From a bacterium (lineage in GTDB: Bacteria > UBP14 > UBA6098 > B30-G16), in contig JAGHAI010000213.1 in assembly GCA_021161555.1 (NCBI GenBank), positions 1 through 36,406 on the forward strand: a stretch of DNA of 36,406 nt. Direction: 5' to 3'. Each line of letters begins with the position of its first letter. Within the stretch, counting starts at the first letter, position 1. Under the pieces are notes generated by a model, which had not been told where the DNA came from, did not search any database, and saw only the letters and a program-made list of their open reading frames with translations. Position numbers and translations under genes: made by a program. Below are positions 20,056 to 25,316 of this stretch, piece after piece.

Positions 20056-21882
20056 ATGAATAAGTTTCTATTCGGCGCGATTATCGTTCTCTCATTGTAT
20101 TCCATCATTTTTGGGCAAAATCCGCCACGGGAGCTGGTGGCGCAGGGATTTTCCACCCCACGCGTGGAACTGAACTGGATGACGCCTGTCATTCCACTCG
20201 AACTCGACGAAATTGCCTACGAAGACGGCAGTGGCGGAAGCGCGGACGAAGCGGAACAGGGAGATATGATTTCGGTCAGATTCACCCCCACCGAAAGATG
20301 TTCGCTCATATCCGCAAAATTCTACGGGTATGCGATGTATCCTGGCATAAATATTCAGGTGGTCGTCTATCCTGATAATGGATATGGCAAGCCTGATATA
20401 TTTTCGCCGCTGGCGTCGCCTGTAACCTGCGAGATAACAACAGGCTGGCAGGAAGTCGATTTATCCACAGCTGGGCTGGTTTTCGACCCGTATGAGGATT
20501 TCCACATCGGGATAAAGAAAATCGCAAATGTGGATACTTTCCCCCACTACATTTTCATAGACACGGACGACAGCACCGAAAGAAGCTGGTGGTATGATTA
20601 CAGTATGTTCGGATTTCACGGAATCGGTGGTGACCTTGAAATCCGCGCTCTCGTGTATAATACATCGGGGCTTATGAGGTGGCTTCCGGATGAAAAACAG
20701 GTTTTCGCTGCGGATGGTGAGGGTGGAGTTTTCAATCGCCACACCGTGCGTTTTCTCACGGAAGATATAGACCACTATGTAATTTATCGAAATACCGTTC
20801 CCGACCTTTCGTCTATGTCGTATCTCGCGATGACTTCGGATACTTTTTACACCGACAACGATGTTTCCGAAGATGCGACATATTACTACGCTGTCAAGGC
20901 GGTATATTCTGACGGCGGCGGAATTTCCGATTTCTCTAACATTGCTTCTGCCACGACGCACAGTGGAGCGGCGACGACATATCTCGATACCATTATCCTC
21001 GACGATGGAACATTCGACGCTTCCGCCACCTGGACGGTCGAACACGGTTTTGGAACCGTTCTAAATCCATCGAGCGTTGGGCTTTTGCGAACCTTGATGT
21101 TTTACCTGACTAATACCGGAGAATTTCGTCCCGAAGTGTGGTCTGTTGACAGCTCTGGATTCCCCACATCGTTGATTTCAGGTTCACCTTCGTTTTTATC
21201 TGCCACATCCGTCGGCTGGCGAAGTGTTGGCTGGTCATCCTGGACGACGACTGTTATCGACGAAGATTTTCTCGTAGCTTGCATCTGTGGATATTCACCT
21301 GTGTCTCTCGGGATGGATGTTCCCGGATATAGTTCATCTTTCGACTTCAATGGGAGCAGCTGGAATGCGATGTCCGATACGACATATATGATTAGAGCAA
21401 TTGTGGAATACAACACAGACTGCGCATATTACAATATACATACAGGCTGGAATCTCGTCAGCCTTCCCGTGATGCTTGAGGACAGCTCCATTTCGAGTGT
21501 TTTCCCGATGGCTGCTGGAGGATTGGCTTATTATTATATCACAGGCGTTGGATATGATACGACGAGTGTAATTGTTCCTGGGAAAGCATACTGGATACTT
21601 TCATACATTGATACATCGTTTTCTATCTGCGGCGGCACACCGTTATACACCCTCGATGTGGAAGTGGAACCCGGATGGAATATGGTCGGCGGAACCGCCG
21701 TGCCGGAAGGATATTCCAAATATGATATTTTCGACTATCCCGATGGAACTCTCACATCGTATCCGTATTTATTCGGCTTTGATGTAGACAGCAGAAATTA
21801 TATCGCCGTTGACAGGCTTTATCCTGGCAAGGGATACTTTTTGCTTGCCTTTAATTCCGGAATTATAAGATTTGAGCCATAA
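20056..21882 (+). CDS. Secreted protein with Fn3-like segment and two C-terminal GWN-type repeats
   Basis: SD GGAGGTG and signal peptide; 'HTGWNLVSLPV...PGKAYWIL' and 'VEPGWNMVGGTAV...PGKGYFLL'. Confidence 0.7.
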   Translation: MNKFLFGAIIVLSLYSIIFGQNPPRELVAQGFSTPRVELNWMTPVIPLELDEIAYEDGSGGSADEAEQGDMISVRFTPTERCSLISAKFYGYAMYPGINIQVVVYPDNGYGKPDIFSPLASPVTCEITTGWQEVDLSTAGLVFDPYEDFHIGIKKIANVDTFPHYIFIDTDDSTERSWWYDYSMFGFHGIGGDLEIRALVYNTSGLMRWLPDEKQVFAADGEGGVFNRHTVRFLTEDIDHYVIYRNTVPDLSSMSYLAMTSDTFYTDNDVSEDATYYYAVKAVYSDGGGISDFSNIASATTHSGAATTYLDTIILDDGTFDASATWTVEHGFGTVLNPSSVGLLRTLMFYLTNTGEFRPEVWSVDSSGFPTSLISGSPSFLSATSVGWRSVGWSSWTTTVIDEDFLVACICGYSPVSLGMDVPGYSSSFDFNGSSWNAMSDTTYMIRAIVEYNTDCAYYNIHTGWNLVSLPVMLEDSSISSVFPMAAGGLAYYYITGVGYDTTSVIVPGKAYWILSYIDTSFSICGGTPLYTLDVEVEPGWNMVGGTAVPEGYSKYDIFDYPDGTLTSYPYLFGFDVDSRNYIAVDRLYPGKGYFLLAFNSGIIRFEP

Positions 21883-21895
21883 AAAAGGAGATTTT

Positions 21896-22858
21896 ATGCG
21901 AAGGTTTGTTTTTACCGTTCTGCTGTTCGCACTTGTTTCTGCGTCGTCTGCGGGAACAATTAGCGGAACTTTTATCTTCGAGTGTGCCGAGCCTGACTCT
22001 TATACGATAGCATACGCATCAGTTTTCACTGTTTCCTCTATCAGCTCGGGGGACTTTATGTCATCGCCATACGATATCGTTGTGCCGCCCTGGGACTACG
22101 AAATTACTTATGACTTCGACGACGATTCCGAATATTATGCTGTGGGCAGCGTTATAATCGGCGATTTTCCTGATATAACCGATGGAAATCCTATGGGAAT
22201 GTTCCCTGGCAGTCCGTTTCACACCGTAGGCGGTGCAGCAGAAGATGTCGATATTGTTCTCGATGACACTGTGGACATCACAGTTGGGGTTGATGTTGTT
22301 GGTGGTGCGTTTGAAGATATCTATGTCAACATTTACGATGCCGTGCCATATTTTCTTGCCGGCGGCGACCCCACTCTCGAAATAACTCTGCCGATGGAAG
22401 ACACGATACAGACTATATCCGATGTTCCCGCAGGTCCTAAATACATTCAATTTTTCAAAGACCTGAATGATAATGGTGTCTGGGATGAAGAGGAACACAG
22501 CGTTTACATCGAAACTCCCGAGAGCAATCTCGTATTTGCAGTCGGCGGATTTTACGATACTCTTCGGGCAACGCTGGACTTGAGTAAAATTGTCGAAAAA
22601 TCTGTGCCAGAAAATATGTTGGCTCTCGATGTATCTCCATCGCCATTCAATAGTTCCGCGAGAATAGAAATTTCGGGTATATCTGATGATGCTCTGTTAG
22701 AGATAAGCGATGTTTCTGGCAGAATCGTATATCGCAATGATGTTGCCGGCAATCTTGTGTTCGAGTGGAAGCCGAAAAATCTTGCGGGCGGGCTTTATTT
22801 CGTCAATCTGTCCAGCGGTGAAGACAGGATTATAAAGAGAATTGTGTATATGCCATAG
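21896..22858 (+). CDS. Secreted protein with Por-type (T9SS type A-like) C-terminal sorting domain
   Basis: Signal peptide MRRFVFTVLLFALVSASSAG. C-terminus 'SPSPFNSSARIEI...ISDVSGRIVYRND...WKPKNLAGGLYFVNLSSGEDRIIKRIVYMP'. Confidence 0.82.
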   Translation: MRRFVFTVLLFALVSASSAGTISGTFIFECAEPDSYTIAYASVFTVSSISSGDFMSSPYDIVVPPWDYEITYDFDDDSEYYAVGSVIIGDFPDITDGNPMGMFPGSPFHTVGGAAEDVDIVLDDTVDITVGVDVVGGAFEDIYVNIYDAVPYFLAGGDPTLEITLPMEDTIQTISDVPAGPKYIQFFKDLNDNGVWDEEEHSVYIETPESNLVFAVGGFYDTLRATLDLSKIVEKSVPENMLALDVSPSPFNSSARIEISGISDDALLEISDVSGRIVYRNDVAGNLVFEWKPKNLAGGLYFVNLSSGEDRIIKRIVYMP

Positions 22859-23127: not shown

Positions 23128-25092
23128 ATGAAACAGCATCTATTTATTGCGATTATTTTTTGCGTGGTGTTTTCCGCAGGTGCGATGGAACTTGTGGGAA
23201 GTTATTCGGGTTTCACCAATACGCAGAAATGCGTTCCAAATGGTGATTATCTATATCTGCTCGATAGGTTTACACTATATGTCTTCGATATAAGCATGCC
23301 TTCGTCTCCTGCAAAAGTAGATTCCATCGTATTTAGTGGTTATGTTCTCGACCTTACAATTAGCGGAGATTATGCCTTTCTCGGTGCCGGAAATTCTGTG
23401 GTTGCGCTCGATGTTTCCGACCCCGCTCATCCTGTTGAGCTCGGCTCGACATCGTTCGGAGCGTCCGATTATGTATATGGAATAGCGTATAAGGATGGAT
23501 ATGTTTATGCTTCGATAATGAATTCCTTCAGGATTTTATCATACACGCCACCTGCGACATTTTCGGAAGTATATTCGTCGTCGTATATGACGAAGACTGT
23601 CGATGTTGAAGGAGATTATGCGGCAATTGGTGTTTTTGGTGGAGGTGGGGGGGGAATTTTTATATTTGATATTTCCAATCCCGAACTGCCTGTCGGTGTG
23701 GGCGGAATGGCAACGCCTGGCTTCGCCGTGGATGTGGACATAGACGGGGACAGAATTTACATCGCCGATGGTGCAGAAGTCGGCGTTGGAACGGGGCATA
23801 TTCTTCTAATGTTGACATCTGATTTGCACTCTGAAGCGGGGCGGTTCTCATCTGACGATGGCGACTGCCAGCACGGATGCGCCTACGGAACTCAATATAT
23901 CGTCGCAAACGGAAGCGATGGCTTTCTGCTGCTTGACTGGAGCGAACCTGTGCCAACTTCGCCGACAATTGCCGATGAATATTCTCTTCCCGAAACAGAT
24001 TACGCTCAGGAAGTAAATGTTCAGTATCCATATATTTATGGAATTACGAGAAACGAACTTCTTATTCTATACAGCGATGAACTTGTCGATACGGGAACTG
24101 CTGTTGACACTGTCGATACGATTCCGCCGACTGTGGAATTGGTTGAACCGTTCGATGGTGCTGTTTCATCCTGTATTGACCAGTGCGTTTCCTTTGTCAT
24201 AACCGATGATGTGAGTGGCGTAGATTGGAGTTCTGTGCAAATTGGCATAGGCGCTGATGTATATTCAATCGGGGATTTATATCACAGCGGCGATACTGTG
24301 TCCTTTTACCCTATGATAGAATGGATGGACGGCGATACTGTTGAATTTTATTGTGTATATGCTGCCGATAATGACGGGAACATCGCCGTTGATTTGCCAT
24401 CGGGGACTTTTTTCACCGATTTTTCTCCGCCTATAATAGCGGATTTTGTTCCTGCTGAATGGGGAACTGTCTCCGTCGATACGCCCACAATATCGGCGAG
24501 GATATACGATGAAGTTTCTTCCGTGAACGATAATTCAATCAGTCTGATTGTGAATGGGGTTCACATAGAGCCTGACGATTTTGATTGGGATGGTTCACAT
24601 ATCACATATCGCCCGACTGAACCTATTGTCGATACTGTGGTTGCCGTTTGCATTTCCGCTTCCGATACTGTGGATTATTGCGCATCTAACTTTGCCGATA
24701 CCTGCTGGACATTTTTCATACGAACGGATGAAGTTAGCGAAAAAAATATCCCCCAAACATTGTCGCTTATAACCTATCCAAATCCGTTCAATTCATCTAT
24801 CGCCATTTCCGTAGAGACGCAAAATCTTGCGTCTCCACCCGAAATTGCGATATACGATGTGATGGGGAATGTTGTTTATAAATCATCCCCTCTATCCTCT
24901 AACTCCTTTCTCCCCGAGGAGAAAGAAGAATCTTTCCCTCTCCCTGGGGAGAGGGAAACACAAAGGGTGAGGGGACGATTCACCTGGGCGCCTGAAGAAT
25001 CTGTTCCGTCGGGAATTTATCTCATTCGCGCCACAATCCCGCAACAGAAGAAAACAGTCGTCTGCACGAAGAGAATTGTGTATTTGAAATAA
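23128..25092 (+). CDS. Secreted LVIVD-repeat-like protein with Por-type C-terminal sorting domain
   Basis: SD GGAGGGG and signal peptide; repeats such as 'LYVFDISMPSSPAKV', 'VVALDVSDPAHPVELG' and 'IFIFDISNPELPVGVG'; C-terminus 'YPNPFNSSIAISV...IYDVMGNVVYK...GIYLIRA...KRIVYLK'. Confidence 0.82.
   Translation: MKQHLFIAIIFCVVFSAGAMELVGSYSGFTNTQKCVPNGDYLYLLDRFTLYVFDISMPSSPAKVDSIVFSGYVLDLTISGDYAFLGAGNSVVALDVSDPAHPVELGSTSFGASDYVYGIAYKDGYVYASIMNSFRILSYTPPATFSEVYSSSYMTKTVDVEGDYAAIGVFGGGGGGIFIFDISNPELPVGVGGMATPGFAVDVDIDGDRIYIADGAEVGVGTGHILLMLTSDLHSEAGRFSSDDGDCQHGCAYGTQYIVANGSDGFLLLDWSEPVPTSPTIADEYSLPETDYAQEVNVQYPYIYGITRNELLILYSDELVDTGTAVDTVDTIPPTVELVEPFDGAVSSCIDQCVSFVITDDVSGVDWSSVQIGIGADVYSIGDLYHSGDTVSFYPMIEWMDGDTVEFYCVYAADNDGNIAVDLPSGTFFTDFSPPIIADFVPAEWGTVSVDTPTISARIYDEVSSVNDNSISLIVNGVHIEPDDFDWDGSHITYRPTEPIVDTVVAVCISASDTVDYCASNFADTCWTFFIRTDEVSEKNIPQTLSLITYPNPFNSSIAISVETQNLASPPEIAIYDVMGNVVYKSSPLSSNSFLPEEKEESFPLPGERETQRVRGRFTWAPEESVPSGIYLIRATIPQQKKTVVCTKRIVYLK
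24811..24838. repeat. Palindromic element GTAGAGACGCAA-AATC-TTGCGTCTCCAC inside a CDS
   Basis: 12-bp arms with one mismatch (perfect 9-bp core 24814-24822/24827-24835). Confidence 0.85.
24886..24975. repeat. 90-bp nested palindromic element inside a CDS
   Basis: Outer TCCCCTC (24886-24892)/GAGGGGA (24969-24975), inner CTTTCTCC-ccga-GGAGAAAG and TTTCCCTCTCC-ctgg-GGAGAGGGAAA. 90 nt = 30 codons. Confidence 0.85.
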
Positions 25093-25106
25093 TTTTTTGT
25101 GGATGA

Positions 25107-25167
25107 AACCCCCTCTGCCTCGCTGTGCTCGCTTTCTCCCCTCGATAAGGGTGAGATGCAAAGGGAG
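25107..25167. repeat. Related but degenerate C/T-rich then G/A-rich repeat, intergenic
   Basis: AACCCCCTCTGCC...CTTTCTCCCCTCGATAAGGGTGAGATGCAAAGGGAG shares TTTCTCCCC, AAGGGTGAG and CAAAGGG motifs with 24886-24975. Confidence 0.5.
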
Positions 25168-25316
25168 TATTAAAAATATTCAGCGAGCGATTTTAATCGC
25201 CCGCCGCCTATTCTTTATTAAAAATTTTCATTTTTTATAAAATATTTGCTGAATTGTTCGAGATACAATATTTTAATAATAGATATTTGATTTTACAAAA
25301 CGGCAGAGGATATGCT

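Follow-up and report, generated by a model that had tools for sequence, protein, structure and literature searches.

Palindromic repeats inside protein-coding DNA were known before, namely in Rickettsia and Wolbachia and as REPs within genes (PMC2229807, PMC10969869, PMC3733652). Rickettsia palindromic elements (RPEs; Ogata 2000) are palindromic repeats lodged in frame in protein genes, with an encoded peptide that is apparently tolerated (reviewed in PMC2229807, PMC10969869), and GTAG REPs, RAYT transposases, and the presence of REPs inside genes have been described by Di Nocera (2013; PMC3733652). Perfect inverted repeats also occur inside functional coding sequence in the mitochondria of Nematomorpha (PMC6649704). 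As for palindromes in T9SS sorting domains (CTDs), no paper was found in the openly licensed literature that we searched. Here, we analyzed a stretch of 36,406 nucleotides of bacterial DNA (hereafter, the window), which is contig 55 of a 2.3-Mb assembly with a completeness of 93%, within which the stretches around matches were examined. Two palindromes in this window, each in a different turn of one T9SS sorting domain, suggest a pattern that is apparently both wider than the window and undescribed: probably, repeat palindromes have become lodged in two permissive turns of this domain, where they would enter and spread by the routes considered below.

According to the original prediction, the palindromes lay within a sorting domain at the end of an LVIVD-like gene, and both Pfam and NCBIfam bear this out by calling a T9SS sorting domain there (27.4 bits for PF18962, with a cut-off of 27, and 27.3 bits for TIGR04183, with a cut-off of 23); PF18962 is moreover matched by all 41 aligned CTDs at E ≤ 0.01. 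On these profile matches, the last domain of the gene is a T9SS CTD, predicted to direct secretion through the T9SS. It corresponds to the final 105 codons, with one palindrome in each of two turns (hereafter, loops 1 and 2). In an AlphaFold2 model based on the alignment of 41 CTDs, the beta fold of the window CTD is confident (pLDDT 87.6), the peptide of palindrome A covers a strand end together with the beta-hairpin turn that leads into the following strand, and the peptide of the 90-bp unit is mostly a low-confidence loop (lowest block mean 63) that ends at the next strand. In the model of a compact CTD from another locus (L239), the palindrome encodes with high confidence the beta-hairpin turn and the start of the following strand. 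A Foldseek search against the PDB was uninformative, as it returned nothing beyond weak matches to beta-sandwiches of immunoglobulin-like type (best E 0.0085).

Table. Coordinates of the host gene, its sorting domain, the palindromic units, and the neighboring protein in the window
Feature	Position	Strand	Basis or product
Neighboring CTD protein, unoccupied short loops (10 and 8 residues)	21872..22858	+	CTD profile match, alignment
LVIVD-repeat protein (host gene) ending in a T9SS sorting domain (CTD)	23128..25092	+	ORF; PF08309 (LVIVD), PF18962, and TIGR04183 above cut-off
T9SS CTD, from NPFN to the stop codon	24781..25092	+	Profile matches; predicted confident beta fold
28-bp palindrome A, GTAGRGRY-N12-RYCYCTAC variant (last arm CCAC here)	24811..24838	.	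Encodes VETQNLASP, CTD loop 1
90-bp composite palindrome, unit C1	24886..24975	.	30 codons, SPLSSNSFLPEEKEESFPLPGERETQRVRG, CTD loop 2
90-bp unit, inner hairpin 1	24903..24928	.	Arms 24903-24913/24918-24928, 10/11 paired
90-bp unit, inner hairpin 2	24933..24958	.	Arms 24933-24944/24947-24958, 12/12 paired

Recomputing the arms placed both palindromes where they had been predicted. Palindrome A has 12-bp arms, complementary at 11 of 12 positions, around a 4-nt loop, and 100 shuffles of the window yielded no copy with three mismatches or fewer. Translation likewise agreed with the prediction that the 90-bp unit is exactly 30 codons, in frame, and codes for the peptide given in the table, these 30 residues sitting between GNVVYKS and RFTW. 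Its outer arms (24881-24892/24969-24980) are 11/12 paired, and the predicted RNA fold of 24880-24981 reaches −50.6 kcal/mol (z = −4.8; none of 200 shuffles equally stable). The equivalent join in the neighboring protein is short, as foreseen, although it counts 8 residues instead of about ten, and the protein itself begins at 21872. Set against unoccupied CTDs in the alignment, loop 1 is longer by a net ~5 residues and loop 2 by ~24, which is less than the 10 and 30 codons that simple additions would have contributed. Net length changes also vary from lineage to lineage, and we therefore abandoned the view that the 28-mer invariably represents a simple insertion of 30 nt. Directly past the stop codon, at 25090-25200, the DNA is again palindromic and repeat-like (CCCCCTCTGCCTCGC...AAGGGAG, followed by inverted repeats flanking GCGAGCGATTTTAATCGCCCGC); over its first ~110 bases, it shares 86% identity with the DNA that follows another CTD gene (L077).

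The original prediction interpreted the 90-bp unit as an isolated, RPE-like insertion of a mobile palindrome into the LVIVD gene. In support of an insertion, the nested in-frame palindrome is missing from readable orthologues: among those compared, which come from related genomes and share at most 54% identity (two of them, in G006 and G004, being uninformative because the printed frame ends before the CTD), no trace of the 90-bp peptide was found where the CTD is readable, and the loops there are short, thus providing the empty sites that had been sought in orthologous sorting domains. The peptide was not seen conserved without its palindrome in distant orthologues either, and both elements, for which a search of the genome had been advised, proved to be multi-copy. 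For the 90-bp unit, this amounts to four further near-full copies (97–98% identity), and all five copies are in frame at one identical join of paralogous CTDs that belong to different genes. While the repeats, their copy number, and their absence from readable orthologues agree with an in-frame insertion of a mobile palindrome, the sharing of the unit at the same join by four paralogous CTDs besides that of the window, and thus by a CTD clade, makes an isolated event in this gene very improbable. An artefact of repeat assembly is the least credible of all the readings considered: some sister copies do sit a few hundred bases or less from a contig end (C103, C119), yet the window copy is internal to a 36-kb contig, and the recurrence extends to many independent assemblies, including that of strain Stygiobacter electus 09-Me, with the frame kept in nearly all cases.

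Since full-length copies of the 90-bp unit were found only in these five paralogous CTDs of one clade, the window copy probably came along when a CTD was duplicated, and the five copies would most likely derive from CTD duplication followed by loop exchange rather than from five separate insertions. We counted this confinement against mobility of the 90-bp unit itself, whose mobile nature is therefore putative. Its third-position diversity is 0.000, against 0.15–0.19 in the flanks. Partial copies share the left 36–45 bases and lie mostly outside CTDs, some with conserved outer flanks; many of them continue into another hairpin and a GATGAGG(GG) end, and they form a family of related composite palindromes.

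Occupied and empty turns coexist in the window's genome. Palindrome A is present there in five exact copies and further variants; at one locus (L091), A has the opposite orientation inside a divergent CTD. Among 35 parsed CTDs, loop 1 holds palindrome A in six and another palindrome, B (GTAGGGGTTTGGC..GCCAAACCCCTAC), in two, units of five classes occupy loop 2 in 12 (one unit each), and paralogous CTDs with unoccupied loops are common. The combinations of loop 1 and loop 2 assort independently among close paralogues (A/C1, B/C1, A/C4, none/C4, and none/C2). Elsewhere, related loop-2 composites can be read in frame and in the same orientation in one genome (G002, L134) and in the opposite orientation in another (G006, L137); the second turn has been occupied by larger composite palindromes. 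In loop 2 of a further genome (G010), we take other stretches (VIARSASDEAISPF...RNDG, PSVPLPGGEGGD, and SPLFKEGW) to be repeat-like. A further loop-2 unit, encoding RHREMSPT, occurs in different genera (L093, L103, L195, and L215); in one of these loci (L103), its DNA forms two small hairpins with mutually complementary loops, TCCC and GGGA. In the window's genome, two more CTDs, on contigs 209 and 166 (L106 and L088), carry a composite loop-2 unit that reads into a stop codon, and the CTD end is lost, which makes them natural frame-breaking cases.

Both A and B fit the pattern GTAGRGRYKY-N8-RMRYCYCTAC, and when 17 genomes of the phylum were scanned with it, every center proved palindromic or near-palindromic despite the free N8. 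A tally of translations assigns 19 of the 33 distinct sites in the phylum to CTD loop 1; for two of these 19, the CTD is a degenerate remnant. The palindromes are read in two phases, either with GTA as a codon (VETQNLAS, VGAHGRAPLQ) or as GRGLAxQTPT, the third phase having a TAG stop. The 28-mer is one variant of a superfamily of perfect palindromes present in CTDs and elsewhere, and the first CTD turn has been filled on several occasions: the palindromes there differ, stand in either orientation, and use both of the phases that are free of stop codons. One palindrome stands in a similar non-CTD context in two genomes (L222:523 in G010 and L230:486 in G014), which would read VLLDPPPDDDA-VGAHGR(A/T)PLP-TNLTA.

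Beyond the phylum, a species-level scan of GTDB for the palindrome near PFN codons, in which counts are lower bounds, returned at least 121 palindrome sites among the matches listed, 51 of which scored as T9SS CTDs; a further site (L319) resembles a CTD that was truncated by the parsing. Among these listed matches, a single phase accounts for 49 of the 51 CTD sites, when the remaining 70 sites are split 17/35/18, and the same CTD turn is occupied in the window's phylum, Marinimicrobia, Ignavibacteria/Melioribacteraceae, Calditrichota, and bins labeled Bacteroidota. Zixiibacteriota was dropped as an additional phylum, as the record concerned (DSAF01, labeled Zixiibacteriota SpSt-1142) is G014, a relative of the window organism. 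In an ascertained sample of 17 genomes, each chosen for at least one palindrome match, 81 of 158 palindromes directly follow NPFN codons, with all gaps multiples of three and in one phase, and 64 of 141 still do once one palindrome per genome is removed. Genomes other than the window's hold 1–20 palindromes each; those following NPFN make up 15 of 18 in Ignavibacteriales SURF_24 (G077) and 12 of 15 in Melioribacteraceae S145_16 (G071).

How such copies spread can be approached in the first of these two genomes, where element-like hairpins of at least six classes occur in 39–40 of the 70 CTDs examined, a share inflated by the choice of these CTDs for their similarity to a profile of occupied ones. 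On a CTD tree that, like the other one built here, uses few columns and is poorly resolved, the VETSYMTSL class forms a single clade of 14 and the other classes are scattered. The palindrome of this class has a synonymous diversity of 0.02, versus 0.34 upstream and 0.19 downstream (p = 0.002, relatedness of the copies not being modeled). Third-position diversity is likewise reduced relative to the flanks in G071, G068, and G070, and is not reduced in G063 because each CTD there carries a different palindrome. In several groups, the palindromes vary less at synonymous sites than the flanking DNA does, for which recent entry, gene conversion, or hairpin selection may each be responsible. The clade-wise class, together with the scattered classes and the synonymous contrast, shows copying along with CTDs as well as repeated entry or exchange of palindromes. 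That palindromes of different families are found, in either orientation and in two phases, shows several acquisitions; some occupied CTDs were later duplicated onto further cargo genes and took the unit along.

If the palindromes were instead pure passengers, that is, if each lineage had received one chance insertion, later copied only through CTD duplication and fusion to new cargo genes, with the peptide kept by protein-level selection, the confinement of the 90-bp unit to one CTD clade and the single clade of 14 would be expected. We nonetheless find this scenario unlikely, as close paralogues carry different units at the same turn, several unrelated classes are scattered on the tree, the opposite orientation and the second phase exist, and synonymous codons are far more uniform in the palindrome than around it. 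Less likely still is a selected RNA or DNA hairpin acting in the CTD mRNA (through stability, or through a pause ahead of complete folding) or serving as a site on the DNA; the synonymous uniformity and the strong predicted RNA hairpins fit it, but most CTDs in the same genomes are devoid of any palindrome, and recent entry or gene conversion would yield equal uniformity.

Under the preferred reading of palindromes lodged in permissive turns, entry would proceed through REP-type single-strand mobility driven by a RAYT/Y1 transposase, or through hairpin-mediated exchange between repeats. The units would survive because a hairpin in the DNA, when translated as V-(E/G)-x...-(S/P)-L, may yield a peptide that fits the CTD beta-hairpin, and because surface loops may accept longer peptides, with a presumably neutral or small effect on secretion. 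Against this reading counts the fact that our search of the window's genome returned no RAYT flanked by GTAG palindromes. So do the pairing of GTAG in the 28-mer, the poor resolution of the CTD trees, the way in which the 17 genomes were chosen, the lower-bound nature of the GTDB counts, and the unreduced third-position diversity of G063. The genome's single Y1 transposase gene was rejected as the mobilizer, no GTAG palindrome lying beside it. In favor of this reading, an ORF of a relative (G011, L218:579-1427) matches the REP-transposase model NF047646 at 58 bits, below the cut-off of 80; two 28-mers are read in frame within this ORF, and a third lies immediately ahead of it.

Protein-coding palindromes have mainly been associated with Rickettsia and Wolbachia, as an oddity of these bacteria, and here one small domain collects several families of them, in frame, in different phyla. 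As the CTD exists in dozens to more than 100 copies per genome, occupied and empty copies stand side by side in each, which makes it testable how selfish palindromes enter coding DNA, how position and phase become fixed, and whether secretion changes. For annotators, VETxxxxSLQ, VGAHGRAPLQ, or SPLSS...RVRG inside sorting domains should be taken as repeat DNA. More speculatively, and with considerable doubt on our side, T9SS CTDs of several phyla could be places where palindromic mobile DNA docks preferentially; the palindrome would supply a ready-made beta-hairpin turn, and its copies would act as homology handles through which gene conversion helps to spread or homogenize secretion signals among cargo genes.

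Compared with known systems, the window CTD shares its NPFN start, beta fold, and C-terminal position with the ordinary T9SS type A sorting domain (PF18962/TIGR04183) and differs from it by loops that are replaced or enlarged by repeat-encoded peptide. In Nematomorpha, both arms encode native conserved protein, whereas the palindromes described here are repeats that also occur at other places. The likeness to RPEs that was originally proposed holds for the mode of occurrence, as both are in-frame palindromic repeats inside protein genes; however, RPEs measure ~105–150 bp and occupy many unrelated Rickettsia genes, when the units described here measure 28 and 90 bp and recur, across unrelated phyla, in the same two turns of a single secretion domain, and the 28-bp unit belongs, by its sequence, to a GTAG REP-like superfamily. 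With GTAG REPs (PMC3733652), the 28-mers share short (20–40 bp), multi-copy GTAG stem-loops, several families per genome, complementary stem variants, and an occasional location inside genes; mobilization by Y1/RAYT transposases, likely for GTAG REPs, is putative for the 28-mers. They depart from them in three respects: no flanking RAYT was seen in the window's genome, the GTAG that is unpaired at one stem end in GTAG REPs pairs in the 28-mer with a terminal CTAC, the whole unit being a perfect palindrome, and GTAG REPs are mostly intergenic, whereas about half of the 28-mers in the sampled genomes reside in one protein domain.
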